The position numbers and the translations under genes are program-made. DNA of 33,400 bases from an uncultured Gammaproteobacteria bacterium (lineage in GTDB: Bacteria > Pseudomonadota > Gammaproteobacteria > Arenicellales > JAANXG01). Below the pieces are notes generated by a model. The model was not told where the DNA came from. It did no database searches and was given only the letters and a program-made list of their open reading frames with translations. The stretch lies in NCBI GenBank assembly GCA_947258975.1, contig CAMYKK010000042.1, positions 1-33,400 of the forward strand. Direction: 5' to 3'. Each line of letters starts with the position of its first letter. Positions within the stretch are counted from its first letter, which is position 1. Positions 1,175 through 25,539 of the stretch are shown one piece after another.

Positions 1175-1204
1175 CCATAACAATCTAATGATGCGCGCGA
1201 GGCT

Positions 1205-4090: not shown

Positions 4091-4096
4091 GCACAC

Positions 4097-4828: not shown

Positions 4829-4883
4829 AGCCCGTGCGGTCATACGGCAATCCACTTGCTTCCAAATCCGCAGTCTGATCATC

Positions 4884-5855
4884 ATGCATCCCGCGTTTTC
4901 GGTGATTTTTCTTACTACCCTGATCGGCGCCGGTCAGGGTTTGTTTCTGGCTCTGTACAGCGGGGAATGGTTCGTGCACAGTCGATCGGGCCTGCCCTAC
5001 TCCGGAGAGTTCTACGTAAGGGGCAGCGCGCTGTCTATGGGTCTGCTCATTGCCGGCCTGTTTGCGTCGTTCTTCCATTTGGGGCGCCCGGAGCGGGCTT
5101 GGCGTTCGGCGGCGCAGTGGAAGACGTCGTGGCTGTCGCGGGAAGTCATCGTCCTGCCTATCGTCATTGTCCTCGTTGCCTTGTATGGGACAGCGCATTA
5201 TTTTGCATCAACGCCTGACATTGCGCCGCCGCACATCCGCCGCGAGGGGACACTGTGGATCGGCGGGGCTACCACCGCTGCGGTGCTGGCGCTCTTTCTA
5301 TGTACCGGAATGATCTATGCCTGCATCCGCTTTCTGCAGGAGTGGGCGACGCCGCTGACGGTATTCAACTACACCCTTTTGGGCAGCGCCTCCGGGTTTA
5401 CCCTCGCGACCGCCCTGGCCCAGCAATACGCTGCCGAGTTGACTCGGTATTATGGGATGTGGGCGGTTGTCGTGACGCTCGTTGCACTGGCAATGCGGAC
5501 CGCCTCGCTTATCCGCAACACTCGAATAAGAAGAAAATCCTCGCTGCAAACCGCGACTGGAGTCAAACATCAGCGCATTACCCAACGTTCCCAAGGCCTC
5601 ATGGGCGGCTCATTCAATACCCGCGAATTTTTTCCCGGCGCGTCACCCACGCGGTTTCAGCAGTTGATGTGGTCGTTTCTCGTACTGGTGTTTCCGGTGC
5701 CGATACTTTTGATTATCGCGGGACTTTTCACCGAGATGGCCGGATTCTTTGCCGCCGCCTTTCTTGCTCAGTATCTAGGTTTGCTCGCCGAGCGCTGGTT
5801 CTTTTTCGCCCAAGCCAACCATCCGCAAAACCTCTACTACCAAACGATGGGCTGA
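4884..5855 (+). CDS. soeC: Sulfite dehydrogenase membrane anchor SoeC (DmsC-like)
   Basis: Polytopic membrane protein (323 aa) of the DmsC/SoeC anchor family. Hydrophobic segments are visible from the N-terminus (AFSVIFLTTLIGAGQGLFLA) through VIVLPIVIVLVALYG, TTAAVLALFLCTGMIYACI and MWSFLVLVFPVPILLIIAGL. FHLGRPERAWRS (about residues 62-74) is a typical DmsC loop motif. It would anchor SoeAB on the cytoplasmic face and reduce quinone. It lies 55 nt after soeB with only a weak ribosome binding site, and converges with uspA 22 nt away. Confidence 0.8.
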   Translation: MHPAFSVIFLTTLIGAGQGLFLALYSGEWFVHSRSGLPYSGEFYVRGSALSMGLLIAGLFASFFHLGRPERAWRSAAQWKTSWLSREVIVLPIVIVLVALYGTAHYFASTPDIAPPHIRREGTLWIGGATTAAVLALFLCTGMIYACIRFLQEWATPLTVFNYTLLGSASGFTLATALAQQYAAELTRYYGMWAVVVTLVALAMRTASLIRNTRIRRKSSLQTATGVKHQRITQRSQGLMGGSFNTREFFPGASPTRFQQLMWSFLVLVFPVPILLIIAGLFTEMAGFFAAAFLAQYLGLLAERWFFFAQANHPQNLYYQTMG

Positions 5856-5877
5856 GCCCGCATATCACCCCAAGACT

Positions 5878-6375
5878 TCAGTAAAGCGCTTCGGGCAGCG
5901 GGACGATGACCGCGGGGATGCGCGAGCGATGCATGACGCTCTTGGCCACGCTGCCGACAAACGCGTGTCCAAGTCCCTTCTCGTGGGTCCCCATCACGAT
6001 CATGTCGCAATCGAGCTCGTTGGCCTTCTTGAGGATCTCCTCCGCTGGATACGATTCGCACACGTTGATGGACGCGATCTGCTTACTCACCTCACGATCG
6101 GCCGGATCGAGCTGCTTCCAAAATTCCTCCAGGCGCTTGTTGAGCTCTTCTTGCGCCTTTTTCACTCTGCCGGTCAACATAGCGTCGCGATTTTCGGCGT
6201 CGAGCACGTAGGTCTGCAGCACGAACTTAGCGTCATTCGAGAGAATCTCCACCACATGCAGGATATGCATCTCGGCGCCGGTCTTCATCGCCAGGTATAC
6301 GGCATAGCGGAATGCGTAGACGGCGTTGAGCGACAGATCGGTGCTGTACAGGATTTTACGGATGTTGGGTAACAT
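5878..6375 (-). CDS. uspA: Universal stress protein, UspA family
   Basis: Single UspA domain of 165 aa. The opening IRKILYSTDLSLNA contains the Asp of the nucleotide-binding fold, and the G-x2-G-x9-G(S/T) ATP signature appears as MGTHEKGLGHAFVGSVAKSV (about residues 131-150). It is last in the tpa-dctPQM-uspA run, 68 nt after dctM. UspA proteins are often encoded with TRAP transporters; in Halomonas, TeaD regulates the TeaABC TRAP system. A role in tuning this transporter is therefore likely but inferred. Confidence 0.85.
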   Translation of the reverse strand: MLPNIRKILYSTDLSLNAVYAFRYAVYLAMKTGAEMHILHVVEILSNDAKFVLQTYVLDAENRDAMLTGRVKKAQEELNKRLEEFWKQLDPADREVSKQIASINVCESYPAEEILKKANELDCDMIVMGTHEKGLGHAFVGSVAKSVMHRSRIPAVIVPLPEALY

Positions 6376-6443
6376 TGCGAGACGAGTCCTCTTTCAATCA
6401 AGTTGATAACTTCCTGTTTCGCCGCCTTGGTGCAATATGCGGG

Positions 6444-7784
6444 CTAATATCCAATGAGACTGGGTAGCCACAGGGAAAGCTGCGGCACATAGGCGATGAT
6501 AAATATCGCAACAATCGATGCTAGAGCGAACGGGATGGCCTTGACGGAAATGTCCTCGATGGTCGAGCCCCCGATACCCGAAGCGACGAAGAGGTTCTCT
6601 CCCAGCGGCGGCGTCTGGAAGCCGATGGCCAGTGTGGCTACCATCACCACTCCGAAATGCACCGGATCCACCCCCAGATTGTACATGATGGGCAACAGCA
6701 CCGGGGTCAGAATCATAATAGTCGCCAGGGTCTCCATGAACATTCCCACGAACAGCAGGAAGGCGATAACCATGGCCCAGATTACATACATATTGTCGGT
6801 GACTTCCAATAATGATGCGGCGACGATCGCCGGGATCTGATTCTCCACCAGCAGCCGCCCGAACACCGTCGCCGTGAACAGGATCAACAGGACCCGGCCG
6901 GAAATCCAGGTGGTCGTCTCCAGGGAGTGGAAGGCGTCCTTCAATTTGAGCTCCTTGTGCATGAATACGCCGATGACTACCGTGTAGAAGATCGCGACGA
7001 TGGCCGACTCGGTGGGCGTGAAAAACCCGCTGTAGATGCCGCCCAGAATTATGAGCGGAGCCAAGATGGACCAGAACCCCTCCTTGAGGGTGCGCCGCAT
7101 GTCCACAAACGACCAGGAATCGGTGATCCCGCGGTAGCCGCGCTTTTTGGACCTGAAGTAATTCATGATGAGCACATTTGTGGCAATGATGAATGCCGGA
7201 ATGAAACCGGCGATAAAAAGTTTCGGAATCGACAAGGTCTGAAACTCGCCGAATTTCGCAACCGCCTCGGGAGGCGGCTGCATGCCGAGGCCCGAAATCC
7301 CGAAAATCACCATCGGAATTGACGGCGGGATCACCACGCCGAGGCCACCCGATGAGGCAGTGATGGCGGAGGCATAACCCCTGTCGTACCCCCGGTTGAC
7401 CATGGCTGGGATCATCAGCATCCCCACGGCGGCCGTGGTGGCCGGCCCAGAGCCCGAGATCGCCCCGAAGAATACGCAGGCGAAAACCGTAGCCGCCCCA
7501 AGACCGCCGGTGACCGGCCCGGCAAAGGTCTCGGCAATGTTGACCAGCCGTCTGGATACCCCGGCCGCCTCCATGAGGGCGCCCGCGAGAATGAACGCCG
7601 GCAACGCCATCAACGGAAACGAGCCAACCGATGTAAAGGCGATTTGCACGAACTTGATGGGATTCTCGCCCAGGTACAAAAACGCCACCAAGGCGGAGAC
7701 TCCCAGCGACACCGTAATGGGCGCCCCTAGAAGTAATAGAAACAGGAATGCGCCGAACAATATCCATACAACGGTTGTTTCCAC
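6444..7784 (-). CDS. dctM: TRAP transporter large permease (DctM/TauM-like)
   Basis: Large membrane subunit (446 aa) of a tripartite ATP-independent periplasmic transporter. About twelve hydrophobic stretches are seen, with family landmarks LPAFILAGALMEAAGVSRRL (about residues 61-80) and SASIT-like and PPSIPMVIFG segments. The start is GTG at 7784, chosen because GGAG lies 7 nt upstream. The gene begins 17 nt after dctQ. With DctQ it imports the DctP ligand driven by a sodium or proton gradient. Context suggests taurine or a related sulfonate (a TauKLM-like role); substrate is inferred. Confidence 0.9.
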   Translation of the reverse strand: METTVVWILFGAFLFLLLLGAPITVSLGVSALVAFLYLGENPIKFVQIAFTSVGSFPLMALPAFILAGALMEAAGVSRRLVNIAETFAGPVTGGLGAATVFACVFFGAISGSGPATTAAVGMLMIPAMVNRGYDRGYASAITASSGGLGVVIPPSIPMVIFGISGLGMQPPPEAVAKFGEFQTLSIPKLFIAGFIPAFIIATNVLIMNYFRSKKRGYRGITDSWSFVDMRRTLKEGFWSILAPLIILGGIYSGFFTPTESAIVAIFYTVVIGVFMHKELKLKDAFHSLETTTWISGRVLLILFTATVFGRLLVENQIPAIVAASLLEVTDNMYVIWAMVIAFLLFVGMFMETLATIMILTPVLLPIMYNLGVDPVHFGVVMVATLAIGFQTPPLGENLFVASGIGGSTIEDISVKAIPFALASIVAIFIIAYVPQLSLWLPSLIGY

Positions 7785-7801
7785 AGCGATTCTCCCCAGA
7801 G

Positions 7802-8386
7802 TTACCTGTTGTCTGTGCCTTCGACACCGGACCCGGTTTGCTGCTCGGAATCCAGCAGATGTTCCGCCATGTGCTCCATCTCCGCCGATTCCGGATCGCG
7901 AACGTCGACTCCCTTTACCAGCTTGAGGTAGTTCACCTGGACGATACGGATGGACATCAGCGCGAAGGCGATGGGGAGAATCAAGTAGATGTATTTCATG
8001 GGTATGCCCATGGTCTGTGATTTCCAGAACAGATTCATCTTATTGAAGACGAAGTCGTAACTGAGATATACGAAATAGAGGTTGAAGCCCAGCCAGAAAA
8101 GGTCGGCGATAAACTCGCTCACCGTCGCAACCGCTTTGGGCATCATCTTGAACTGAAACGTGACCCGGTTGTGGGCCGCCATCTTTGCCGCGTGGCTGGC
8201 ACCGAAGTACGCAAACCAGACGAACAAGTAGGTTGCCAGCTCTTCGCCCCAGGGAATCGAATACGAGAAAAACTCCCGGGAAACAATCTGTACGAACAGC
8301 AGCGTGACGAAAACCGCCAGCAGGGTCCGGCAGATGTAGCTTTCGATATTATTGAAGAATTTCAACACCATCCCAGATGCAGCCAT
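7802..8386 (-). CDS. dctQ: TRAP transporter small permease (DctQ/TauL-like)
   Basis: Small four-helix TRAP subunit (194 aa from the chosen start). Typical sequence includes IPWGEELATYLFVWFAYFGA and a following charged AAHNRVTFQF region. The ATG at 8386 is preferred because GGAGG lies 7 nt upstream. Reading could extend upstream to 8413, but that adds nine residues with no ribosome binding site. A strong hairpin occupies the gap from dctP. The C-terminal tail of about 30 residues is acidic and polar. Confidence 0.88.
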   Translation of the reverse strand: MAASGMVLKFFNNIESYICRTLLAVFVTLLFVQIVSREFFSYSIPWGEELATYLFVWFAYFGASHAAKMAAHNRVTFQFKMMPKAVATVSEFIADLFWLGFNLYFVYLSYDFVFNKMNLFWKSQTMGIPMKYIYLILPIAFALMSIRIVQVNYLKLVKGVDVRDPESAEMEHMAEHLLDSEQQTGSGVEGTDNR

Positions 8387-8401
8387 GGACAATCCTCCAG
8401 G

Positions 8402-8450
8402 GAAAAGCGGCACTCTATTCGCAAGTCAGGATGATTAGAGTGCGCTTTTC
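8402..8450 (-). other. Intercistronic hairpin between dctP and dctQ
   Basis: GAAAAGCGGCACTCTA (8402-8417) pairs with TAGAGTGCGCTTTTC (8436-8450) through 15 base pairs with one bulged G, across an 18-nt loop. On the transcribed (-) strand it starts about 60 nt after the dctP stop and ends 7 nt before the dctQ ribosome binding site. Such structures after the binding-protein gene commonly keep its mRNA level above that of the permease genes. This use is inferred. Confidence 0.65.
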
Positions 8451-8511
8451 AACTCAGCTAGGGAGTCCCCGATTCATTTCGAGGATCCCGCGGTAACAGG
8501 ATGATCGGTTG

Positions 8512-9516
8512 TCAGCCGCGGCCCAGGAGTTTGAGCACCCGATCGAGCTTCTCTTTGCCGCCGATGCTCTTGTAGTATTTGGGCCACACCTCTTTAGTTG
8601 CCTTGTCGATCCATTCTTTCTCGCCGTCAGCGGGCTCGCTGATCTGCATGCCCTTCTCCATCAGTGCCTTGCGGATCGCGTCCTCGCTTTTGGCGATGAA
8701 TTCGGCGCTGTGCGCGGTGGCTTCCTGTCCGGCTGCGAGAATGGCGTTCTTTACATCATCGGACTGGCTCTGGAATACGGACTCGCTCACAATGAGCGGC
8801 TCCAGTGAAAAGATGTAACGGATATTGGTGACGTATTTTTGCACCTCATAGAACTTCATCGCGTGGACAGTGATGTAGGGGTTGTCCTGGCCATCTACGA
8901 CTTTCTGCTGCAAGGCGGTAAACGTCTCGGACCAGGCCATCGGCGTCGGGTTGATGCCCCAGGACTGATACGTCGCGATCATGATCTCATTCTTGGGGAC
9001 GCGAACGATGACGCCGTCCAGATCGCCGACGGTCTTGATCGGTCGCTTCGAGTTGGTCAGCACCCGAAACCCGGAGTAGGCCCAACCGATAATACGCACA
9101 CCCGCATCGCGCAGGGTGTTTTCCGTCAACTCCTTCCCGACCTCGCCCTGGGTCAGCTTGATCGCGTCGTCCAGGCTCAAAATCACGTACGGCAAAGTGA
9201 ACAGACCCACCGTTGGCGAGAACGGCGTAATGTTGTTGATGGCCAGTATGGAAAAATCCAAGGTGCCGATCGAGGCATCGTTCACGGTATCCTGCTCGCT
9301 GCCCAGTTGGCCGTTCGGAAACAATCTAACGTCGTGCTTACCGCCGGTTTTCTCCTTGAATTTTTCCACGAACTTCGTCCCCAATTCCCATTGGGTGCCA
9401 CCCTGCGCATCGCCAAGTGCGAGTTTGAAGTTCTTGGCGAATGCGCCGGGACTCGCGCAAAGAAAAATCGCGGCGCTAAAGGAAAGGGCTTTTACAATTC
9501 CCGAATTGTGGTGCAT
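8512..9516 (-). CDS. dctP: TRAP transporter substrate-binding protein (DctP/TauK-like)
   Basis: Periplasmic solute receptor (334 aa) with an N-terminal signal peptide ending near AFA-KNF (about residue 27). DctP-family landmarks are present: FPNGQLGSEQDTVNDASIGT, GWAYSGFRVLTNSKRPI, VIVRVPKNEIM with the ligand-carboxylate-binding Arg, and TFTALQQKVVDGQDNP. GGAGG lies upstream of the ATG at 9516. It is the first transporter gene after tpa (134-nt gap, same strand). Taurine or another C2/C3 sulfonate is the contextual guess; the family mostly binds carboxylates, so this is not certain. Confidence 0.9.
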   Translation of the reverse strand: MHHNSGIVKALSFSAAIFLCASPGAFAKNFKLALGDAQGGTQWELGTKFVEKFKEKTGGKHDVRLFPNGQLGSEQDTVNDASIGTLDFSILAINNITPFSPTVGLFTLPYVILSLDDAIKLTQGEVGKELTENTLRDAGVRIIGWAYSGFRVLTNSKRPIKTVGDLDGVIVRVPKNEIMIATYQSWGINPTPMAWSETFTALQQKVVDGQDNPYITVHAMKFYEVQKYVTNIRYIFSLEPLIVSESVFQSQSDDVKNAILAAGQEATAHSAEFIAKSEDAIRKALMEKGMQISEPADGEKEWIDKATKEVWPKYYKSIGGKEKLDRVLKLLGRG

Positions 9517-9650
9517 GGTGTTGTCTCCTCCAGTTGTGGGTAGATTACGACTCTTTACTACATCATTGACATTCCGCGTGGAAATGGTTCAACGCGCTAA
9601 CCGGCTGCAGTGCACTTTAAACCGATCCCGCCAGCTTTTCGCCACGGCGG

Positions 9651-11021
9651 TCAGCATTCGCTCAATACCACGCGCAGGGTTTGACACATGTCGTCTATAT
9701 GACTCCTTTCGGCAATCAACGGCGGTGCTAGGATCCCCGCATCACCGGTAGTCTTGATATGCAGTCCGGCGTCAAACAAGCGCTTTTGCACGGCGTGACC
9801 GCGCATGCCGGGTTTCACACCGGCCGCCAAATCGAAACCGGCAATCATGCCGTAACCGCGAATATCGGTAATGACCGGGAGATCGCTCAGCGCAAACACG
9901 GAATCCAGGAAATACGGGGAAAGCGCCGCCGCCCGGTCAAACAGAGCTTCCTTTTCGTATATCTCCAGCGCCGCTAGGCCCGCGGCACACGCCGCCGGGT
10001 GCGCGGAAAACGTATAACCGTGAAACAACTCCACGGCACCCTGGGGCGCGGCCTCGGTGATAGTGTCATAGATGCCCTGGCGGACTGCCACCGCCCCCAT
10101 CGGCTGTGCGCCGTTGGTGATCGCCTTGGCCATGGTCATGATATCGGGAACGACACCGAAACTCTGCGCACCAAAGGGCCTTCCGGTGCGTCCAAATCCG
10201 CAAATCACCTCGTCCAACACCAGAAGGATGCCGTTGTCATCACAAATTTCGCGCAAGCGCTGCAGGTAGCCCTTGGGCGGTATCAACACACCCGTGGAAC
10301 CTGCCAACGGCTCGACGAAGCACGCGGCGATGTTTTGTCCGCCATGCAGATCCGCCAGACGCTGTAAGTCCTCCGCGAGCTCGGCGCCCGTATCCGGCTG
10401 TCCCTTGGTGAAACGATGCTCCGGTAACCACGTATGGCGCATGTGCACGACGCCGGGCAGGCTGGGGCCAAACGACTCCCGATTCCTCACCATGCCGCTC
10501 AGCGAAGTGCCGCCGATATTCACTCCGTGGTATGCCCGCTCCCGGGAGACAAACATGTAACGTTGGCCTTCGCGGCGCGCGCGGTGGTAAATAGAGCAGA
10601 TCTTCATCGCCGTATCGACGGACTCCGATCCGGAGTTGACGAAAAAGATCCGGTTGAGATCCGCCGGCGTCAAGTCGGCGATGCGTTGCGCGAGCTCGAA
10701 CGACGCGGGGTGGCTGCGCAGAAACGAGGGCGTATAGTCCAGTTGATTGAGCTGTTGGGCTACCGCATCGGCGATCTCCGTGCGCCCGTGACCCGCAGCG
10801 CAAGTAAACAATCCGGAACAGCCATCCAGGATCTTCTCACCGTTTGCGCCCCAGAAATACATGCCCTGGGCACGCACGAATAACCGCGGCTCGCTCTTAA
10901 ATTCGCGGTTACCAGTGAACGGTAACCAATGGTATTGAAGGTCACCGGCCATGGAGGGGCTGCCTTGATCGCCAGCCACATCTTGATTTCCATTATCCAT
11001 GACAGATCGAGAAAGACTCAT
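9651..11021 (-). CDS. tpa: Taurine--pyruvate aminotransferase (class III, PLP)
   Basis: Class III omega-aminotransferase of 456 aa, the usual length for Tpa. It would transfer the amino group of taurine to pyruvate, giving sulfoacetaldehyde and alanine. Visible landmarks are the substrate-loop YHWLPFTGNREF (about residues 30-41), SGSESVDTAMKIC, the Asp-containing VLDEVICGFGRTG, and the PLP lysine K299 in TMAKAITNGAQP. The start is uncertain: 11021 and 11000 are both possible and neither has a clear ribosome binding site. It diverges from a TauR-like regulator and precedes the TRAP genes. Other omega-amino acid:pyruvate aminotransferases share these motifs; the xsc-pta-soe neighbourhood decides for Tpa. 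Confidence 0.78.
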   Translation of the reverse strand: MSLSRSVMDNGNQDVAGDQGSPSMAGDLQYHWLPFTGNREFKSEPRLFVRAQGMYFWGANGEKILDGCSGLFTCAAGHGRTEIADAVAQQLNQLDYTPSFLRSHPASFELAQRIADLTPADLNRIFFVNSGSESVDTAMKICSIYHRARREGQRYMFVSRERAYHGVNIGGTSLSGMVRNRESFGPSLPGVVHMRHTWLPEHRFTKGQPDTGAELAEDLQRLADLHGGQNIAACFVEPLAGSTGVLIPPKGYLQRLREICDDNGILLVLDEVICGFGRTGRPFGAQSFGVVPDIMTMAKAITNGAQPMGAVAVRQGIYDTITEAAPQGAVELFHGYTFSAHPAACAAGLAALEIYEKEALFDRAAALSPYFLDSVFALSDLPVITDIRGYGMIAGFDLAAGVKPGMRGHAVQKRLFDAGLHIKTTGDAGILAPPLIAERSHIDDMCQTLRVVLSEC

Positions 11022-11325
11022 CGACGCCGGTTGTGCTCACAGGCCCAAGTTGCCTGGACGGTACACGTCCAGGCTGCAGGGAGATAGAGCCAGAACGGAC
11101 CATTCAATGAGACCAAAGGACAAAGATCGTCTGCTGTTGCACTGGCCCGCAGCCGACCAAACAATCTCAACCATAAATCTTACCCCAGGGGCCGCGTACG
11201 ACGGTGCGGAGATCTAACAACCCGATTCCCGTTGACCGCTGTGGCCCAATACGGGCGCTGGCTATTGTCATCGCCGCAGCTCAACGCCTAGACTCAACCA
11301 TTCCGAAAAACGTGGCACGCTCTAT
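11022..11325. promoter_or_regulatory. Divergent tpa / tauR control region (304 bp, no gene)
   Basis: Shared upstream region of tpa (-) and the MocR regulator (+). It holds a perfect inverted repeat at 11052-11074 (listed separately). A sigma70-like promoter for the regulator is possible: TTGTCA (11265-11270), 18-nt spacer, TAGACT (11289-11294). CTCAAC occurs three times (11166, 11280 and 11293), the last two 13 bp apart as a direct repeat. I see no coding potential here. Confidence 0.5.
11052..11074. promoter_or_regulatory. Perfect inverted repeat, candidate TauR operator
   Basis: GCCTGGACG (11052-11060), GTACA spacer, CGTCCAGGC (11066-11074). The 9-bp arms match perfectly. The site lies 30 nt upstream of the tpa start, in the region shared with the regulator gene. 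CTGGAC within each arm resembles the core of TauR boxes (CTGGAC-C/T-TAA) that I recall from Rhodobacter capsulatus, although those are direct repeats. Confidence 0.5.
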
Positions 11326-12819
11326 ATGAAAAGCCGCCTGGATCACGTCATGTGGGACCAGTTATTCGAGCTGTCGTCGCGTCGCAACATCAGCTTGCAG
11401 AGTCAGCTCAGGGAGCAACTCGTCGCCGCAGTTCTCGACGGGCACATTCCAGCGGATAAGGCCCTGCCCTCCGGGCGGGAACTGGCAAAACAGCTGGGAG
11501 TTGCCCGCAACACGGTTGTCCTCACCTATCAGCATCTGGTCGACGACGGCTATCTTATTTCCCGCGAACGAAGAGGTTATTTCGTCAATCCTAAGATGTT
11601 GAACGGCCGGGTATCGGCAAGCACGAGTTCGACGCACAAATCCAGTCGGCACGACTGGAATAGCCGTTTCCGGTTCAAACCCAGCACCCAACACAATATC
11701 GTTAAACCGCGAAACTGGGAGGGGTACGACTACCCGTTCATTTCCGGTCAGCCGGATGCGTCACTCATTCCGGTCAATGATTGGCGCGAGTGTTGCCGCC
11801 GGGCGTTGAGTATTTCTTCCATCCAGGAGACGGCGCGGGACCGGGTCGATAACGACGATCCGTTGCTCATCGATCAGATACGCACTCGCATGCTGCCACG
11901 GCGGGGTATCTGGGCGTCCAAGGAGGAGATCCTCATCACCCTGGGAGCGCAACACGCACTGTATCTGCTGGCAAGCCTGCTCGTCAGCGACCGGCATGTC
12001 GTGGGATTCGAGGACCCTGGCTATCCGGATGCGAGGAACATATTCAAGAAGTGCACCCCCTCAATCACGACCCTACCGGTTGATGGGGAAGGAGTCGTCA
12101 TCGATGCGCGGGTTAACGCCTGCGATTATGTTTACGTTACCCCCAGCCATCAGTCACCGACTACGGTCACGATGTCCGCGAAGCGCCGCCAAACTTTGCT
12201 CGAGCAAGCCGACAAGTCGGACTTCCTGGTTATCGAGGACGACTACGAATGTGAATCCAACTTCCGCGGCAACCCCACCGCAGCGCTCAAGAGCCGGGAT
12301 CAAAACAACAGGGTCATCTACGTCGGCAGTCTTTCGAAAACGCTGGCGCCGGGACTGCGTGTCGGCTATTTGGTGGGACCTGCGGAGTTAATTCATGAAG
12401 CTCGTTCGCTGCGCCGCCTGATGGTCCGCCACCCACCGGCTAACAACCAACGAATCGTGGCGCTATTTCTTTCCCTCGGACATCACGATTCGCTGATTAA
12501 CCGTCTCAGCCATTGTCACAAACAAAGGTGGCAGGTCATGGGCAGCGCCCTGGATCGACATTTGCCGGATTCTTCGCACATGCCCACCTATGGCGGCACC
12601 AGTTACTGGGTAAAAGGTCCACGCGAACTCAACACCAAGGAGCTTTATCCCCGAGCGTTGGAACACGGTATCTTGTTCGAGCCTGGAGATGTTTATTTCG
12701 ATTCCGAACCCCCCCCGAAGCATTATCTGCGACTCGGGTTCTCGTCGATTTCCGTTGACCGCATCGAGCCGGGTATCCGTAAACTCGCGGAACTGATCCA
12801 TGGAAAGTCAAACTGCTAA
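11326..12819 (+). CDS. tauR: MocR-type GntR/aminotransferase regulator (TauR-like)
   Basis: Fusion of a GntR winged helix-turn-helix (about residues 15-85; PSGRELAKQLGVARNTVVLTY is in this part, given here as LAKQLGVARNTVVLTYQHL) and a fold-type I aminotransferase-like domain. The PLP lysine is K338 in GSLSKTLAPGLRVGY, and the FEDPGYPD and VIEDDYECE motifs are present, so cofactor binding looks intact. Length (497 aa) fits the family. MocR proteins sense an amine through PLP chemistry. The divergent position beside tpa matches TauR, the activator of taurine genes, and the product would sense taurine. PdxR or GabR-like assignments are possible from sequence alone. A second in-frame ATG at 11350 is also usable. 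Confidence 0.8.
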   Translation: MKSRLDHVMWDQLFELSSRRNISLQSQLREQLVAAVLDGHIPADKALPSGRELAKQLGVARNTVVLTYQHLVDDGYLISRERRGYFVNPKMLNGRVSASTSSTHKSSRHDWNSRFRFKPSTQHNIVKPRNWEGYDYPFISGQPDASLIPVNDWRECCRRALSISSIQETARDRVDNDDPLLIDQIRTRMLPRRGIWASKEEILITLGAQHALYLLASLLVSDRHVVGFEDPGYPDARNIFKKCTPSITTLPVDGEGVVIDARVNACDYVYVTPSHQSPTTVTMSAKRRQTLLEQADKSDFLVIEDDYECESNFRGNPTAALKSRDQNNRVIYVGSLSKTLAPGLRVGYLVGPAELIHEARSLRRLMVRHPPANNQRIVALFLSLGHHDSLINRLSHCHKQRWQVMGSALDRHLPDSSHMPTYGGTSYWVKGPRELNTKELYPRALEHGILFEPGDVYFDSEPPPKHYLRLGFSSISVDRIEPGIRKLAELIHGKSNC

Positions 12820-13278
12820 ACCGTATATTGCACCCAGGCATCCGGAGGCCGGCGACGAGACTTGTCCTGCCCGTCGTCGCAGGGTCGGTTGGTAAGTACG
12901 CGGCGATGGAACGCAACCCATAGCCGGCTATGGGTTGCGTGACGCGCAAGTGTAGGCGCTCGCGGCCCCGTCGTCGCCCTACCCTCTGTCACCGCAGCCG
13001 GCATGGACGGCGAAGTACAAGAAGGGATCTGTTTTTTTGCGTCCTGTTCGTCGGGAACCGGTGCGCATCGTTTGTCGTACCGAGCGCGTTTGATCCGCGC
13101 CGCATCGGCCCTGGCCTGCGCTCGATCTGCCTGCGCTATCGGCTGGAGTTGCTCGGCTTTGTCACCTGGCTGCACGTTTTTCCCGAGCGAACGGACGGAT
13201 CGAGAACGCCGGTCGAATCGCCGGTAACGGCACATCGAATATGAGCTTAAATCACTTACAAATATCGGAGTTGATGGT
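12820..13278. other. 459-bp stretch without a convincing gene
   Basis: Lies between the regulator and the Rieske/GltS gene. Open frames of 158 codons (-) and 104 codons (+) exist, but their translations are Arg/Ser/Ala-rich, low in hydrophobic structure and not recognisable, as expected for chance frames in GC-rich DNA. The only clear structure is the palindrome at 12911-12940. The last 30 nt carry the ribosome binding site of the next gene. It may be the remains of a lost gene. Confidence 0.5.
12911..12940. repeat. Perfect 30-bp palindrome
   Basis: The 15-nt half ACGCAACCCATAGCC is followed immediately by its exact reverse complement, with no spacer. It begins 92 nt after the regulator stop. 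There is no T-run, so a simple intrinsic terminator is not indicated. It could be a REP/PU-like element, an mRNA 3'-end stabiliser or a protein binding site. Confidence 0.6.
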
Positions 13279-14898
13279 ATGAATAAGGTCAAAGTCGCGA
13301 AGTGGAACGAACTGGAGCCGCTTGAGCCTGCCTACGCATTGGTCGCCAAGGTCGATCTGGTTGTGATTCGCTTCAATAACGGTGATCAGGCCTCGGTCCT
13401 GTACGGACGTTGCCTGCACCGGGGCGCATTGCTTGCCGACGGCCACGTGGAGGGTGACAACCTGATCTGTGGCGTTCACAACTGGGATTACTGTTACCAC
13501 ACCGGGGTCAGCTCCTACAACCCAGATGAGCGCCTGAAGCAGTTCAACTCCTGGGTGGAGGAGGATCATGTCTGGGTGGATGAAGACGAGATCATCGCCT
13601 GGGAGCAGGACAATCCGCAGCCCTACGACAGAGAGGCTTACCAAGGACTTTACACGGATCTGCACGGCGGTCCTGAGGAGCCCCATTTCAAATACATTCA
13701 GCATCTGGCTGAGCACGGTCTTTCCAAGGTGGGCCACCACGGCCGCGTGTCGGCAATGGGTGTCCCGCGCGATCAACTGCCCAAGTGGGAGGACATCCAG
13801 ATTGTGACCGCCCAGCTTCACAAGGTACCGCTGCTGGACGATGCCCCGGTCGCCACCGACGTGGTCATTGGTCCCAGGGCCGGCAAGCCGCTCGAGCTCG
13901 CAATACCCCTATTCGTATCGGACATGAGCTTCGGGGCACTGTCCGCGGAGGCCAAGACCGCTTTGGCGAAGGGCGCCGAACTTGCCGGTACCGGAATCTG
14001 CTCAGGAGAAGGCGGCATGCTGCCTGACGAGCAGGCCAACAACTCGCGATACCTCTACGAGCTGGCATCCGCCCGCTTCGGCTTCTCCATGGGCAAGCTT
14101 GAGCGCGTGCAGGCGTTTCACTTTAAGTGCGGGCAGGGAGCGAAAACCGGCACCGGCGGCCATCTCCCCGGCCCCAAGGTGAAGGGCAAAATTGCCGAAG
14201 TGCGGGGACTGAAAGACGGTCAGGCAGCGATCTCGCCGGCCCGATTTCCGGACTGGGAACATGTAGATCAATACCGCGACTTCGCTGAACAAGTACGCGA
14301 TGCGACCGACGGTATACCAATCGGCGTGAAACTGTCCGCGCAACACATCGAGCGCGATATCGAAGCCGCACTGCAGATCGGCGTGGACTACATCATTCTC
14401 GACGGCCGCGGCGGGGGTACGGGAGCGGCGCCGTTGCTGTTTCGCGACAATATCTCGGTGCCAACCATCCCGGCGCTCGCCCGCGCCCGGCGGTACCTGG
14501 CCAGCAAGGGCCGCCAGGACGTGACCCTGATTGCCACCGGCGGCCTGCGGCTGCCAGCGGATTTCGTGAAGGCCCTGGCTCTGGGCGCGGACGCTATCGC
14601 CGTGTCGAACGCAGCGATCCAGGCGATCGGCTGTCTCGGCATGCGCGCCTGCCATACCAACAACTGTCCAGTCGGTATCGCGACACAGAAACCACACCTT
14701 CGAGAAAGACTGATCATCGACAAGTCGGCCGAGCGATTACACAATTTCTTTAGCGCGGCGACCGAGTTGATACAGGTCATGGCCCGCGCGTGTGGGCACG
14801 ACCACATCAATCAATTCTGTATCGACGATCTCACCACGTGGCAGCGCGATATGGCGCACCTCACCGGCATCGCCTACGGCGGCGTATCCGCGCTGTGA
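13279..14898 (+). CDS. Rieske / glutamate-synthase-domain fusion oxidoreductase
   Basis: 539-aa cytoplasmic protein. Residues about 1-110 form a Rieske [2Fe-2S] domain with ligands C45-L-H47 and C64-G-V-H67. From about residue 170 on it is the FMN/synthase (alpha2) domain of glutamate synthase, with the flavin/glutamate barrel motifs DMSFGALS, GEGGMLP, KCGQGAKTGTGGHLP, GVKLSAQH, ILDGRGGGTGAAP and IATGGLR. The GltS [3Fe-4S] triad is intact: C-x5-C-x4-C in GCLGMRACHTNNCPVG. There is no glutaminase domain, so any ammonia must come free or from a partner. GGAG lies 8 nt before the start. The reaction is not known to me. Possibilities are ammonium-dependent or N-alkyl-glutamate synthesis, or a different flavin chemistry. 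Proximity to tpa suggests a link to the taurine nitrogen, which is inference. Confidence 0.85.
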   Translation: MNKVKVAKWNELEPLEPAYALVAKVDLVVIRFNNGDQASVLYGRCLHRGALLADGHVEGDNLICGVHNWDYCYHTGVSSYNPDERLKQFNSWVEEDHVWVDEDEIIAWEQDNPQPYDREAYQGLYTDLHGGPEEPHFKYIQHLAEHGLSKVGHHGRVSAMGVPRDQLPKWEDIQIVTAQLHKVPLLDDAPVATDVVIGPRAGKPLELAIPLFVSDMSFGALSAEAKTALAKGAELAGTGICSGEGGMLPDEQANNSRYLYELASARFGFSMGKLERVQAFHFKCGQGAKTGTGGHLPGPKVKGKIAEVRGLKDGQAAISPARFPDWEHVDQYRDFAEQVRDATDGIPIGVKLSAQHIERDIEAALQIGVDYIILDGRGGGTGAAPLLFRDNISVPTIPALARARRYLASKGRQDVTLIATGGLRLPADFVKALALGADAIAVSNAAIQAIGCLGMRACHTNNCPVGIATQKPHLRERLIIDKSAERLHNFFSAATELIQVMARACGHDHINQFCIDDLTTWQRDMAHLTGIAYGGVSAL

Positions 14899-17009: not shown

Positions 17010-18116
17010 ATGAAAACTAGAGCAGCCGTCGCCTTCGATAAGGGTAAGCCATTGGAAATTGCTGAAGTCGATCTGGAAGGCCCCAAAGCCGGTGAGGTTC
17101 AGGTCGAAATTAAAGCAACAGGGATCTGCCATACGGATGCTTTTACGTTGTCCGGCGATGATCCAGAGGGTGCCTTTCCGGCCATTTTGGGGCATGAAGG
17201 AGCGGGTGTGGTCGTAGAAGTAGGAGCAGGGGTGAGGAGCTTAAAGCCGGGAGACCACGTGATCCCCCTCTATACGCCGGAGTGCCGAGAGTGCGAATAC
17301 TGCCTGAACCACAAAACCAACCTTTGCCAGGCCATTCGCGCCACCCAGGGGCAGGGTCAGATGCCCGATGGAACCAGCCGCTTTTCGCTGGACGGCAAAC
17401 CGATCCTTCATTACATGGGGTGTTCGACTTTCTCCAATTACACCGTGCTGCCGGAGATTGCGTTGGCAAAAGTACGTGAGGACGCACCCTTCGACAAGAT
17501 TTGCTACATTGGCTGTGGAGTCACTACGGGAATCGGTGCGGTCGCGTTCACGATGAAAGTGGAACCGGGCTCCACAGTTGCCGTATTCGGTCTCGGGGGA
17601 ATTGGCCTCAACGTGATTCAGGGCGCCAAGATGGTCGGCGCGGCACGGATTATCGGGGTGGATCTCAATGCTTCCAAGACTCCCTTGGCGAAGAAATTCG
17701 GCATGACCGATTTTCTTAACCCCAGCGAGCATGAAAACATAGTGGACACCATAATCCAATTGACTGGCGGCGGTGTGGACTACAGCTTCGAGTGTATCGG
17801 TAATGTGAATGTGATGCGCCAAGCCTTGGAGTGCTGTCATAAGGGTTGGGGTGAAAGCTGTATCATTGGTGTTGCCGGCGCCGGCCAGGAGATTTCCACC
17901 CGGCCGTTCCAGTTGGTGACCGGACGCTCCTGGCGCGGTACCGCCTTCGGAGGGGCACGGGGACGCACGGATGTGCCGAAAATCGTGGATTGGTACATGG
18001 ACGGCAAGATCAATATCGACGACCTGATTACGCATACCATGCCCTTGGAAGACATCAACAAGGCCTTCGACCTAATGCATGCTGGCGAGAGTATTCGCTC
18101 AGTCGTACTGTACTAG
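17010..18116 (+). CDS. frmA: S-(hydroxymethyl)glutathione dehydrogenase / class III alcohol dehydrogenase
   Basis: 368 aa, the normal length. It oxidises S-hydroxymethylglutathione to S-formylglutathione with NAD+. Catalytic zinc ligands C40 (GICHTDAF) and H62-E63 (GHEGAG) are present, as is the structural zinc set C92, C95, C98, C106. The NAD fold [13 protein letters not shown] and the class III-typical [14 protein letters not shown] and SWRGTAFGG segments are intact. It heads the frmA-gfa-fghA run and would detoxify or use formaldehyde made by XoxF. Confidence 0.95.
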
Positions 18117-18205
18117 ACGGCTCTACGTTTGGAAGTTGAAATGCCAGCGTAACTTTTTAACCATAGATTGCGCTGCCAAGCTCCTGGCGTATCGAGGAGC
18201 AATCT

Positions 18206-18242
18206 GGCGTTCTTTTACGCCGTCACTAAATTAAAGAACGCC
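18206..18242 (+). other. Intercistronic hairpin between frmA and gfa
   Basis: GGCGTTCTTT (18206-18215) pairs perfectly with AAAGAACGCC (18233-18242) across a 17-nt loop. It ends 14 nt before the AGGAGG of gfa. No T-run follows. It may mark an mRNA processing or stabilising element that makes frmA expression differ from gfa. Confidence 0.5.
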
Positions 18243-18272
18243 TTACATATACCACATAGGAGGCAACCAGAG

Positions 18273-18839
18273 ATGACTACTTCAATACATCCCGCTGTCG
18301 ACAACGGGGTAAATCCCGGTAGCGAAGATTTTTCGGGCGGCACCCTCTATTGCAAGTGCAGCGAAAATCCTGTAGCTGTTTCGGTAAGCGGTCAGTGTGC
18401 CCATAACCATGTTTGTGGTTGTACCAAGTGTTGGAAGCCAGAAGGCGCTCTGTTCTCACAGGTTGCGGTGGTGCCGCGGGATAGTGTCAGCGTGACGGCC
18501 AATGAGCAAAAGCTCGACATTATTGACCCATCGGCGACGATTCAACGTCATGCCTGCAAGGATTGTGGTGTGCATTTGTACGGCCGTATTGAGAACACCG
18601 GTCATCCGTTCTATGGATTGGATTTTATACACCCGGAACTTTCGAGCGACGAGGGTTGGGCGGGGCCGGAGTTCGCTGCGTTCGTTTCATCCATCATAGA
18701 GTCCGGTGCAAATCCTGAAGTTATGGGTGACGTGCGTACGAGATTGAAAGAGTTGGGGCTGGAACCCTACGATTGCTTGTCCCCCGCGTTGATGGACGCG
18801 ATAGCTACCCATACTGCCAAGGCCTCGGGCGTGCTTTAG
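18273..18839 (+). CDS. gfa: S-(hydroxymethyl)glutathione synthase (glutathione-dependent formaldehyde-activating enzyme)
   Basis: 188 aa, full length for Gfa. Zinc-binding cysteines are C27 and C29 (LYCKCS), C48, C50 and C53 (VCGCTKCW), and C95 and C98 (HACKDCG). It accelerates the addition of formaldehyde to glutathione to give the FrmA substrate. The start at 18273 follows AGGAGG by 9 nt; the frame is open further upstream but without a better start. A terminator-like hairpin follows 37 nt after the stop. Confidence 0.93.
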
Positions 18840-18876
18840 CACCGGATGTCACGGAAACGGTTTGCCATGAACAATA

Positions 18877-18920
18877 GGAGCAAATGTGCGCGGAAGCGTA
18901 CATTTGCTCCTTTAATTCTT
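18877..18920 (+). terminator. Intrinsic terminator-like hairpin after gfa
   Basis: GGAGCAAATGT (18877-18887) pairs perfectly with ACATTTGCTCC (18900-18910), followed by TTTAATTCTT. It lies between gfa and fghA, 21 nt before the fghA ATG, so it could terminate or attenuate transcription into fghA. Confidence 0.7.
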
Positions 18921-18931
18921 GAGCTTCGTTA

Positions 18932-19768
18932 ATGGAAAGGGTTGGCGAAAATAAGAGTTTTGGTGGTAAGCAGCTGCGTTATCGCCACTCATCCAGCAGT
19001 TTGCACTGCGACATGCACTTTTCGATCTATCTGCCGCCACAGGCGCACAATGATCCGGTGCCGGTGCTGTACTGGCTGTCCGGATTGACCTGCACCGACG
19101 AAAATTTTGTCGCCAAGGCAGGTGCGCAGCGGTACGCGGCGGAACAGGGCCTCGCAATTGTGGCGCCGGATACCAGCCCGCGTGGTGAAGGAGTGCCTGA
19201 TGACCCTGACGGTTCATACGACTTCGGTCTGGGCGCCGGTTTTTATGTGAACGCAACGAAACCACCCTGGGATCGCCATTACCGTATGTATGACTATGTA
19301 GTCGACGAGTTGCCTACCCTGATAAATTCACAGTTCCCCGTTGACCCTCACAGGGTGGGAGTTTTCGGACATTCCATGGGCGGCCACGGCGCCTTGACGA
19401 TCGCCCTAAGAAATCCCGACCGGTACCGATGTGTCTCTGCCTTCTCACCCGTTTGTTCACCGATGAACTGCCCTTGGGGGGAGAAAGCCCTCAGTAACTA
19501 TATCGGCGACGACAGTGAAGACTGGTCGCAATACGACACCACTGCCTTGGTGCGGGCGGCGAAGACAAAGCTGCCGATTTTTGTGGATCAGGGTGATGCC
19601 GACGAGTTCCTTGAGGAACAGCTCAAGACTGAGTTGCTGTCAGCGGCGAGTGAGGGTGCGGATTACCCCATGGACATCCGAATGCAGCCGGGATACGACC
19701 ACAGTTACTTTTTTATCGCGTCGTTTATCGAAGAACATATCCAGTTCCACAAACGACATCTCTCCTAG
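18932..19768 (+). CDS. fghA: S-formylglutathione hydrolase
   Basis: 278-aa esterase D family serine hydrolase that splits S-formylglutathione into formate and glutathione. The nucleophile is S148 in FGHSMGGHGAL; the Asp is in VDQGDADEFL and the His in PGYDHSYFF. The N-terminus MERVGENKSFGG is family-typical, which supports the start at 18932 even though no strong ribosome binding site precedes it. It completes the glutathione pathway started by gfa and frmA. The upstream terminator suggests separate or attenuated expression. Confidence 0.94.
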   Translation: MERVGENKSFGGKQLRYRHSSSSLHCDMHFSIYLPPQAHNDPVPVLYWLSGLTCTDENFVAKAGAQRYAAEQGLAIVAPDTSPRGEGVPDDPDGSYDFGLGAGFYVNATKPPWDRHYRMYDYVVDELPTLINSQFPVDPHRVGVFGHSMGGHGALTIALRNPDRYRCVSAFSPVCSPMNCPWGEKALSNYIGDDSEDWSQYDTTALVRAAKTKLPIFVDQGDADEFLEEQLKTELLSAASEGADYPMDIRMQPGYDHSYFFIASFIEEHIQFHKRHLS

Positions 19769-21858: not shown

Positions 21859-22320
21859 TCAACGATCGTAGCGTTCAATCTTACCCGGGGGTATGGCACC
21901 GTCGGAACGTGCCAGCAGGTATAGATAGAGATTGTCGACGTATTTCATCACATTTGGATTTTGCTTCCATCCCGGCATCACCCCGATCTGGCCCTTGTAG
22001 CCGTTCGCCACCACCTCCATAAAGCGGTCCTTATCGATCTCACGCAGCGTCTCCACCAGGCTGGGAGCGAACGAACTGCCGTTGCCGTCGAGGCCATGGC
22101 ACACCTGACACTGACTAAAGGCACGAAAGCCGCGGGTGAGAAATAAATCGATGCGGCATTTTTCTCCGGCGCCCGTTTGGCCCTGTTCGCACTGCACGTG
22201 GTCTCCGTAGAGTGTGGCGTGGCTCTCGGCCCGTGCCAGTACTGCCACCAATGCCGCCAGCGCGACAAGGCCCCAAGACACGGCGACGGTAGTGGCTTTC
22301 CAGCCTGAATGCTTGCTCAT
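21859..22320 (-). CDS. xoxG: XoxG, c-type cytochrome electron acceptor of XoxF
   Basis: Small monohaem cytochrome (153 aa) with signal peptide (TTVAVSWGLVALAALVAVLA). Haem is bound at CQVCH and the likely axial Met is in VMPGWKQNPNV. It accepts electrons from the PQQ of XoxF in the periplasm. Start choice is open: ATG 22320 is 15 nt from GGAGG, whereas a TTG at 22329 is 6 nt from it and may be the true start. A hairpin separates it from xoxF. Confidence 0.87.
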   Translation of the reverse strand: MSKHSGWKATTVAVSWGLVALAALVAVLARAESHATLYGDHVQCEQGQTGAGEKCRIDLFLTRGFRAFSQCQVCHGLDGNGSSFAPSLVETLREIDKDRFMEVVANGYKGQIGVMPGWKQNPNVMKYVDNLYLYLLARSDGAIPPGKIERYDR

Positions 22321-22416
22321 CAAGGTCAATGTTATCCTCCTCATTTTTAGAAAGAGGCCTGCGCGCACAGCGCCCAGGCACAGCTCGGTTCAGGCAAGCG
22401 GAGCCAAGAACGAACT

Positions 22417-22447
22417 CGACCCGCTCGCCGGTGGGGCGAGCGGGTCG
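22417..22447 (-). terminator. Strong hairpin between xoxF and xoxG
   Basis: CGACCCGCTCGCC (22417-22429) pairs perfectly with GGCGAGCGGGTCG (22435-22447) around a 5-nt loop. On the transcribed (-) strand it starts 39 nt after the xoxF stop and is followed by AGTTCGTTCTT, only weakly U-rich. It probably acts as a partial terminator or 3' stabiliser, keeping xoxF mRNA above xoxGJ. Confidence 0.65.
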
Positions 22448-22486
22448 TCGTTCGTGGATGGCTAGAGAGACGCCTCTGATCTTTGG

Positions 22487-24292
22487 TTATGCACCGTCAG
22501 GTAGCACGAATACCGTCAGCACGCCGCCGAGTTGGGTGTGCTTCGCCAGCGCCTTGTAGGCGCCGACCGCGCCCAGGCCCTCGGTATCGCCTTCCAGACC
22601 GGCCGCCATGCCGATCCCGGCCCAACCACCGACACCGGAAAGCACTCCGATGTACTGCTTGCCGTTGTACTCCCAGGTATTGACGTTGCCGATGATCCCG
22701 GACGCGGTCTTGAACTTGTACAGCTCCTTGCCACTCTTGGCATCCACGACCTTGAGATAACCCTCCAGGGTCCCGTAAGCGACAATATCGCCGGCCGTGG
22801 CCAAGGCGCCACTCCACGCCGAAAACGGTTCCGAGATAGACCACTTAATCTTGCCGCTACTCGCATCCCAGGCAATAAAGTTACCGAGATTGTTGGTACC
22901 GTCGCCGGTAACTTTACCCGCGGGGAACATGCTCAGTGTGGCACCAACGTAGGGCTGGCCCGCAACATACTCGACCCGAAACGGTTCGTAGTCCATGCAC
23001 ACGTGGTTGGTTGGCACGTAGAACAACCCTGTTCGCGGCGAAAACGCAGCCGGCTGTTGGTCCTTGGAGCCGAGCGCGGCCGGGCAGATGTTCTTGGTGT
23101 TGACGTCCTCACCACCCTGACCGGTGCTGTACTTCGCCACGACCTGCGGGCGGCCCGTGGTCATGTCGACGTGGGTCGCCCAGTTGACCGCCGGATCGAA
23201 CTTCTCGGCGACCAGCAGTTCACCGGTGACGCGATCCATGGTATAGCCAAAACCGTTGCGGTCGAAGTGCACCAGTGCCTGACGCTTCTGTCCCTTGACG
23301 TCGATGTCGGCCAGGATCATCTCGTTGATGCCGTCGTAGTCCCACTCATCGTGGGGCGTCATCTGGTAAAACCACTTGGCCATACCGCTGTCGGCGTCAC
23401 GGGCCATGATGGTCATCGACCACTTGTTATCGCCCGGACGTACGACCGGATTCCAGGTGCTCGGGTTGCCACTGCCGTAATAGATCAAGTTTAAATCCGC
23501 ATCGTACGAGAACCAGCCCCAGGTCGTGCCACCACCGATCTTCCATTGGTCGCCCTTCCAGGTCTTTAGGCTCGAATCCTTGCCGATCGGCTTACCCATG
23601 GCCGTAGTCTGGTTCGGATCGACGCACATATCGCTGTCCGGCCCCATGCTGTAGCACTTCCAAGCGAGGCTGCCGTCCTTGATATTGTAGGCGGCGACGA
23701 AGCCGCGCACACCGAACTCACCACCGCTGATCCCGGTGTACACCTTGTCTTTGACGACAATGGGTGCGTTGGTGTTGGTCTCGCCCTTCTTCGGATCGCC
23801 ATTTTTCACCGACCATATCAATTTGCCGGTTTTGGAGTCCAGCGCCACTAGCGTGGTGTCGGCTTGCTGCAAAAAGATCTTGCCGTCGGCATAGGCCAAA
23901 CCCCGGTTCACGGTGTCACAGCACATCACTGGAATCGTGTCGGGGTTCTGCTTGGGCTCGTACTTCCAATTGATGGTCTGGTCGGCCAGGTTGATCGAAA
24001 ATACTTTGTTGGGAAACGGGGTGTGTATATACAGCGTGTCCCCGAAGACCAAGGGCCCGCCCTCGTGGCCACGCAGAACGCCGGTCGAAAACGTCCAAGC
24101 GACCTGCAGTTTTTTGGCATTGCCGGTGTTGATTTGATTGAGTTCGCTGTAACGTTGTCCAGCGTAATTCCCACCCCAGATCGCCCAATTGGCGGAATCT
24201 TGAGTGAGTTTCATCACTTCTTGGTTCGCGTTCGCGAACCCCGAAGCGATGGTACCGGCGAAAACCGCCAGCGTTAATGCAGACTTGCGCAT
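22487..24292 (-). CDS. xoxF: XoxF, lanthanide-dependent PQQ methanol dehydrogenase
   Basis: 601-aa eight-bladed quinoprotein with a signal peptide ending near ANA (residue 22). It oxidises methanol (and possibly formaldehyde) in the periplasm. The vicinal disulfide C124-C125 ([10 protein letters not shown]) is present. The catalytic Asp D318 is followed two residues later by D320 in EWDYDGINE, the Asp-x-Asp pattern that marks lanthanide rather than calcium enzymes. Tryptophan-docking repeats (for example [17 protein letters not shown]) are seen. GAGAGGAG precedes the ATG. It leads xoxFGJ from a well-formed promoter. I cannot assign the XoxF clade without a tree. Confidence 0.95.
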
Positions 24293-24362
24293 GGTGATAG
24301 TCTCCTCTCTTATATTATCCGGTAACCCTTTTGGCCACCGGGCACTTTGGGGTGAGGGGGGG

Positions 24363-24392
24363 ATTATACCAAGTAACTCGATCAGGTATAAT
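24363..24392. promoter_or_regulatory. Symmetrical divergent promoter between xoxF and the metallo-hydrolase gene
   Basis: ATTATACC (24363-24370) and GGTATAAT (24385-24392) are perfect inverted repeats separated by 14 nt. On the - strand this gives TTATAC (24391-24386), 17-nt spacer, TATAAT (24368-24363), about 65 nt before xoxF. On the + strand the same letters give TTATAC (24364-24369), 17-nt spacer, TATAAT (24387-24392). Each -10 box therefore overlaps the -35 box of the opposite promoter. The assignment is from sequence pattern only. Confidence 0.6.
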
Positions 24393-24557
24393 TATAATTT
24401 ACTTCCCCATAAATTTATTCCTCGGCGTGTACGCAACATCTCCATACTTTTTGTAGGTGATTGGAATCCCCATCCGGTGACAAATTTTTCGGTCCGAGTT
24501 GTCAAACCGCTTTCGGTCCCGTTCCGCACCGGCGTCCGTCGGGGCCCCAATGGCGGC

Positions 24558-25517: not shown

Positions 25518-25539
25518 AATCGCACGCGATGGGGAAAAC

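Follow-up and report, generated by a model that had tools for sequence, protein, structure and literature searches.

The question raised by this locus is what a Rieske [2Fe-2S] domain does at the head of a glutamate synthase (GltS) domain. We analyzed a window of 33,400 nucleotides (the whole stretch of DNA under study, from an uncultured gammaproteobacterium), in which an ATG-started gene on the plus strand (P0001; 13279..14898) encodes a 539-aa fusion, hereafter Rieske-GltS, defined by its open reading frame, Pfam matches, and homologues. The Rieske domain (residues 3–88; 13285..13542, plus strand; PF00355, E 7.7e-11) and the FMN TIM-barrel synthase domain (residues 201–507; 13879..14799, plus strand; PF01645, E 3.1e-91, with a GltS alpha fold match) both score above the curated Pfam cut-offs. 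Ligand alignment placed the Rieske cluster-binding stretch, C45-x-H47 ... C64-x2-H67, at 13411..13479 (plus strand), and the [3Fe-4S] cysteine triad, C452, C458, and C463 (14632..14667, plus strand), corresponds to residues 1137, 1143, and 1148 of Synechocystis Fd-GltS in the PDB alignment. All seven residues were invariant in an alignment of the window protein with 55 homologues (56/56). The original prediction of a complete Rieske site and of a GltS synthase domain with its [3Fe-4S] triad on one chain is thus borne out, as is its remark on the missing amidotransferase: Pfam matched no glutaminase (GATase) or GXGXG family on the chain, nor zf-CDGSH, nor any electron entry module other than the Rieske domain. 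Full-length homologues with 66–84% identity occur in many genomes, so the reading frame is not a chance fusion; Rieske-GltS is a real, widespread architecture, for which no functional study was found in the literature searched. Besides Rieske-GltS, the window's genome encodes GltB at full length (1539-aa frame) and, as a third member of this kind, a 526-aa GltS-like gene, so Rieske-GltS need not be the housekeeping glutamate synthase here.

The Rieske domain is of the dioxygenase-ferredoxin kind according to NCBIfam, PDB chains, and motifs. Its best NCBIfam and PDB matches were dioxygenase ferredoxins (BphF and HcaC) and NirD, from which it differs in being covalently fused to a GltS domain; we take its CxH/CxxH ligand pattern to lack the additional cysteines that bc1-type Rieske proteins have. 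An AlphaFold2 model of the whole chain (pLDDT 79.9, pTM 0.66) retrieved GltS alpha subunits as its top seven PDB rows (Z 26.4–27.1; 22–25% identity over the aligned fold). Rieske-GltS shares with GltS alpha and Fd-GltS (PDB 1EA0, 1LLW, and 1OFD) the FMN TIM-barrel, the [3Fe-4S] triad, and three residues, E244, K289, and R309, which map to E903, K972, and R992 of Fd-GltS, presumably active-site residues. Judged from the sequence, FMN and the [3Fe-4S] cluster should bind as in GltS. Rieske-GltS departs from these enzymes in having neither an amidotransferase nor a GXGXG domain, in its N-terminal Rieske domain, and in the replacement of Q978 of Fd-GltS by H295, so its substrate pocket is not identical to that of GltS. 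Model pLDDT fell below 50 at residues 287–297, 378–389, and 454–469, loops that lie close to where FMN and the cluster are expected, so that distances among the Rieske cluster, the [3Fe-4S] cluster, and FMN are not readable from the model.

We found that the nearest sister proteins align with Rieske-GltS only from about residue 131 onward (64–68% identity; 22 fetched) and carry, in their first ~110 residues, two CDGSH-type motifs in place of the Rieske domain; zf-CDGSH (PF09360) was confirmed in three examples. This group is the published 'type 5 CISD' of Lin et al. 2011 (PMC3174974), who describe it as a type 6 CISD joined to the FMN-binding domain of glutamate synthase, and an association of CDGSH with Glu_synthase is also noted in PMC5859297. 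Neither a functional study of a CDGSH-GltS fusion nor any biochemistry of CDGSH-GltS or Rieske-GltS was found in the literature searched. The original prediction had stated that no characterised example was known; this agrees with the literature searched, but a close architectural relative, CDGSH-GltS, is already in print.

The likeness of Rieske-GltS to type 5 CISD (22 examined) extends to the GltS body, a similar length, the N-terminal position of the [2Fe-2S] module, and nearly identical active-site columns; the difference lies in the tandem CDGSH motifs that stand where Rieske-GltS has its Rieske domain. E244, K289, and R309 were kept in 36/36 Rieske and 14/14 CDGSH rows, and D215, H295, S353, R377, and N444 were the same in all of these rows as well. 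Among the GltS-like groups compared, D215, S353, R377, and N444 were peculiar to the Rieske and CDGSH groups, while residues 322, 324, and mostly 459 differ between the two. The shared body and these four peculiar residues suggest that CDGSH-GltS and Rieske-GltS probably catalyze the same reaction with a different carrier.

In trees of the synthase body, for which rows were chosen by hand (36 of 56 Rieske and 14 of 22 CDGSH sequences), the CDGSH proteins formed one clade (100/100) nested within the Rieske rows. The Rieske rows formed a single clade in 0 of 200 bootstrap trees, and likewise in a second tree. Such a clade was not rejected by AU tests (p = 0.406 and p = 0.138), so we do not claim that CDGSH replaced Rieske in preference to two separate fusion events. 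By sequence comparison, the GltS body bears either a Rieske or a CDGSH domain at one and the same position, and both versions may coexist in one genome (G107, where the CDGSH-type row was judged by length and match range). That a second, unrelated His-ligated [2Fe-2S] domain occupies the same place on the synthase suggests that the job of this domain is electron handling. The Rieske/CDGSH pair on one synthase body also offers a direct comparison.

Rieske-GltS was detected in 15 of 60 relatives (window's genome included; contig ends truncate the copies in G005 and G017; G058, with a fragment only, left out), in at least 10 of 229 genomes of the class (window's genome included; one copy cut and one with an in-frame TAG; the deeper-branching cases G266 and G120 left out), and, at E ≤ 1e-150, in at least 11 of 398 genomes of the phylum (window's genome included; one copy truncated at residue 332 and one with an in-frame TAG; G436, matching without the N-terminal part, left out). 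The class and phylum counts are lower bounds, with the best 3–6 first-look candidates scored per genome. A wider genome scan gave 568 confirmed stretches, the best 80 of which (69–84% identical over the best segment), many from MAGs, carry record titles that place them in Gamma- and Alphaproteobacteria, Acidobacteriota, Neomarinimicrobiota, Nitrospinota, Nitrospirota, Planctomycetota, Cyanobacteria, Poribacteria, and others. In addition, the full fusion, with its Rieske domain confirmed, occurs on three haloarchaeal plasmids (Halorarius, Salinirubellus, and Halorubrum) at ~60% identity, where it is annotated as 'glutamate synthase-related protein'.

We investigated the gene neighborhoods at the best 80 of the 568 loci, at 19 further Rieske-GltS loci, and at 20 CDGSH-GltS loci. 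At least three contigs occur twice among the 99 Rieske-GltS loci, the flanks vary, and many loci are short; ORF calling was crude (the longest frame wins), so that single genes can be missed, such as an annotated Rieske-PoxB of Halorarius. Rieske-PoxB, a Rieske–ThDP fusion nearest pyruvate oxidase (~660 aa; e.g., L119 12515–14494; families determined on one example), was present at 32 of the best 80 of 568 loci and at 6 of the 19 further loci, and FRD-Rieske, a Ferric_reduct membrane domain with a C-terminal Rieske domain (e.g., L105 13822–15084), at 19 and 1, respectively. The same best 80 of 568 loci included a cation/H+ antiporter (Na_H_Exchanger) at 20 (5 of the 19 further loci), DUF5996-like genes of two clusters at 13 (6 of the 19, and the window), and EgtB/EgtD at 5. 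Rieske ligands were kept in 37 of 38 Rieske-PoxB cluster members and in 17 of 20 FRD-Rieske members. Within the best 80 of 568 loci, Rieske-PoxB lay downstream of Rieske-GltS on the same strand at 28 of 31 oriented loci, as did FRD-Rieske at 15 of 18, and the antiporter lay upstream on the same strand at 18 of 20. Of the best 80 of 568 loci, 51 have a recognised core flanked by 4 kb or more on each side; 29 of these hold one or more of the four main partners and 22 hold none. The orientation and flank counts leave out L085, L090, L112, and L119, which have no recognised core, although L119 and L090 do hold partner genes. CDGSH-GltS differs in this respect as well: the Rieske-PoxB, antiporter, FRD-Rieske, DUF5996-like, and EgtB/EgtD clusters were absent from its 20 loci, which had no recurring partner of the Rieske kind, and no CDGSH match that would point to a CDGSH-PoxB was seen on a ~660-aa frame among those listed for 16 CDGSH-GltS genomes.

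In one genome (G326), the antiporter, Rieske-GltS, a small protein, FRD-Rieske, a c5 protein, and Rieske-PoxB follow one another on one strand in this order, and the end of Rieske-GltS overlaps the start of the next gene. G326, G376, G459, and G483 are the four phylum genomes in which Rieske-PoxB was found, and in each of them all three Rieske fusions share a strand and span ~6 kb at most; the FRD-Rieske match of G483 contains two in-frame TGA codons. Near FRD-Rieske, some of the best 80 of 568 loci also have a small protein (7/80) or a 253-aa protein (9/80), and no Pfam family matched the tested examples of either. On the haloarchaeal plasmids, Rieske-PoxB and the antiporter lie ~3–6 kb upstream of Rieske-GltS in Halorarius, Rieske-PoxB accompanies it in Salinirubellus, and neither was found within 8 kb of it in Halorubrum. 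The ergothioneine genes egtB and egtD adjoin Rieske-GltS at four loci (L066, L067, L072, and L111), the first of which also has DUF5996.

Rieske-PoxB and Rieske-GltS also co-occur across genomes. In the phylum set, Rieske-PoxB was found in at least 4 of 398 genomes, every one of which belongs to the 11 that have Rieske-GltS (hypergeometric p = 3.2e-7). In the class set it was found in at least 3 of 229, again all within the 10 that have Rieske-GltS (p = 6.1e-5). Of the 60 relatives, 8 have it, and 7 of these 8 belong to the 15 that have Rieske-GltS (p = 1.2e-4). These p values ignore shared ancestry. The exception among the relatives, G053, has Rieske-PoxB and no detected Rieske-GltS. FRD-Rieske was found in at least 6 of 398 phylum genomes (at most four candidates scored per genome), 4 of which have both other fusions and two of which (G361 and G555) are without Rieske-GltS. 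In the window's genome, homologue searches gave no match for Rieske-PoxB or FRD-Rieske, and its 5 Rieske hits and 8 TPP_enzyme_N hits lie on different frames; of the partner set, only Rieske-GltS and DUF5996 are present on the window's contig. Given this and the 22 of 51 loci without partners, the partners cannot be obligatory. The association of Rieske-GltS with other Rieske fusions was not found in the literature searched, in which no title or abstract opening named a Rieske-GltS or a Rieske–pyruvate-oxidase fusion.

We lean slightly towards the view that Rieske-GltS is a GltS-type flavoenzyme (FMN plus [3Fe-4S]) with a built-in, exchangeable 2Fe-2S carrier, forming part of a multi-Rieske module in many genomes. 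With its cluster sites occupied, the enzyme would pass electrons one at a time among three centers (the Rieske cluster at the N terminus, the [3Fe-4S] cluster, and FMN), while hydride would be exchanged between FMN and 2-iminoglutarate/glutamate. Since the chain has no amidotransferase domain, the nitrogen source would be free ammonium. The Rieske domain would act as a replaceable electron-transfer module, as suggested by the tandem CDGSH domains that hold the same place in the sister family. The likeliest electron partners would be Rieske-PoxB (ThDP) and the ferric-reductase-like FRD-Rieske (b-haem by family), in a module with the cation/H+ antiporter. The original prediction had described electron flow from a Rieske domain to a GltS flavin as an unusual route; it is the most economical reading, and the Rieske/CDGSH exchange and the co-localised Rieske-fused partners strengthen it. 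We favor a carrier on three grounds: the Rieske domain is the sole electron entry module found on the chain, its place can be taken by a second cluster fold, and the neighbors bear Rieske domains as well.

The direction of such electron flow can be argued both ways. Dioxygenase-type Rieske clusters have potentials of about −150 mV, close to those of the GltS centers and of the 2-oxoglutarate/glutamate couple (about −120 mV). As these values are close together, reductive amination and glutamate oxidation would both be thermodynamically possible. We consider it rather unlikely that the enzyme runs oxidatively. In that case FMN would be the site at which glutamate (or some other amino acid) is dehydrogenated, and FRD-Rieske or the respiratory chain would receive the electrons from the Rieske domain. 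The fairly high potentials of His-ligated Rieske and CDGSH clusters (mitoNEET lies near 0 mV) would fit the role of acceptor no less than that of donor. Membranes are a common destination for electrons from pyruvate-oxidase-like enzymes, and the membrane protein FRD-Rieske lies near 19 of the best 80 of 568 loci. However, GltS enzymes are known to run reductively, and FRD-Rieske was found neither at most of these best 80 of 568 loci nor in the window's genome (at most four candidates scored). It is less probable still that the Rieske/CDGSH domain carries no turnover electrons and instead switches the synthase as a redox or pH sensor or as a stabilising domain. What two unrelated His-ligated cluster folds at one position have in common could be sensing just as much as electron transfer, and pH-sensitive clusters would fit the neighboring cation/H+ antiporter (20 of the best 80 of 568 loci), but Pfam finds no second module for electron entry on the chain, and three different enzymes in the same gene clusters bear Rieske domains.

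Two other readings concern the nitrogen substrate, and both came from the original prediction. One of them, that Rieske-GltS makes an N-substituted glutamate from small amines, like MgsC of N-methylglutamate synthase, has lost ground and now seems improbable to us. It draws on H at position 295, common to Rieske-GltS and a ~43% identical group of ~450-aa free-standing GltS-like proteins, which we take to be MgsC-like and in which no N-terminal iron–sulfur motif was seen (14 fetched), and on formaldehyde-oxidation genes 2–5 kb downstream in the window; such genes were found at 0 of the 99 other Rieske-GltS loci. MgsC works with MgsA and MgsB, and the sole GXGXG match (PF01493) in the window's genome lies inside the 1539-aa GltB, so no stand-alone MgsB-like subunit was found there (the genome is 96% complete and a miss is possible). 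Amine–glutamate exchange should need no net electrons, whereas the Rieske-GltS chain has a dedicated electron carrier. The other reading, in which Rieske-GltS recycles taurine or alanine nitrogen beside tpa, we regard as very improbable, even though taurine-type genes flank it and xsc lies elsewhere in the genome. When 18 window proteins were compared with the ORFs of the 99 Rieske-GltS and 20 CDGSH-GltS loci (E 1e-15), mocR, pta, soeABC, usp, and TRAP dctM/dctQ were found at 0 of the 99 other Rieske-GltS loci (80 of them the best 80 of 568), dctP recurred once, weakly, and the class-III aminotransferase recurred at 4 of the 99. Rieske-GltS starts 459 bp downstream of mocR, with one promoter-like match (12801–12829), although such matches turn up about as often as expected by chance, and with no terminator-like match in between, so the two genes may or may not be co-transcribed. 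With no conserved linkage to taurine genes at 99 loci, an outcome that the original prediction itself had named as counting against it, a taurine role as the general function was rejected, and the taurine genes near this copy look incidental.

Returning to Rieske-GltS as an enzyme with a built-in carrier, a broader picture can be drawn tentatively, and we hold it to be possible but doubtful: a Rieske-wired metabolic module common to bacteria and haloarchaea, in which electrons from Rieske-PoxB would pass from Rieske to Rieske, with no soluble ferredoxin, to Rieske-GltS and/or the b-haem FRD-Rieske. Pyruvate oxidation would thereby be coupled to ammonium assimilation (potassium glutamate, beside the cation/H+ antiporter) or to respiration, and CDGSH would stand in the Rieske domain's place in the sister lineage. 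Rieske domains are best known from bc1/b6f complexes and oxygenases; the recurring trio of Rieske-fused enzymes suggests that the Rieske domain may be a shared plug that wires central carbon and nitrogen enzymes.

The window holds several other gene sets. At 185–12819 lies a taurine/sulfite-type cluster comprising pta, SoeABC-like subunits (molybdenum enzyme/ferredoxin/DmsC-like), Usp, a TRAP transporter, a class-III aminotransferase that scores as AptA in NCBIfam, and a MocR regulator that scores as PdxR; xsc was located at the start of another contig of the window's genome (G000:C122, locus L188). Genes for glutathione-dependent formaldehyde oxidation (class III alcohol dehydrogenase, gfa, and S-formylglutathione hydrolase) occupy 17010–19768, and a quinoprotein relay set (cytochrome c, PQQ alcohol dehydrogenase, SoxH-related metallohydrolase 2, and a fused SoxYZ-like carrier) occupies 21859–26394.

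The window gene that does recur beside Rieske-GltS is the DUF5996 gene (PF19459; 15041..15868, minus strand), which encodes 275 aa from its ATG, is convergent with Rieske-GltS, and was found at 11 of the 99 Rieske-GltS loci (E 1e-15; 80 of the 99 being the best 80 of 568). Of the 13 DUF5996-like neighbors at the best 80 of 568 loci, 5 cluster with the window's gene; the remaining 8 group together further away, and the single member of that group that was tested reached 25.0 bits, which is the Pfam cut-off itself. No mention of DUF5996 was found in the literature searched. Its predicted model (pLDDT 89.2, pTM 0.87) had no PDB match at E ≤ 0.001 (best Z 6.0) and gave no functional hint; H168, D171, G204-D205, and Y212-x-Y214 were invariant in 13 sequences.

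Other GltS arrangements were also encountered. A deep-branching second Rieske-GltS subfamily (L200 4848–6527, with Pfam run on L200, and L201) is ~40% identical to the window protein. At L083 (4445–9200), a GltS-like protein whose N-terminal part has hydrophobic stretches, a ThDP enzyme that lacks a Rieske domain, and an aldehyde dehydrogenase (all identified by eye) adjoin Rieske-GltS, which makes another GltS/ThDP pairing. Finally, a 660-aa chain at L203 (2337–4316) joins an FwdC-like N-terminal part to a GltS domain and represents another rearranged GltS architecture.
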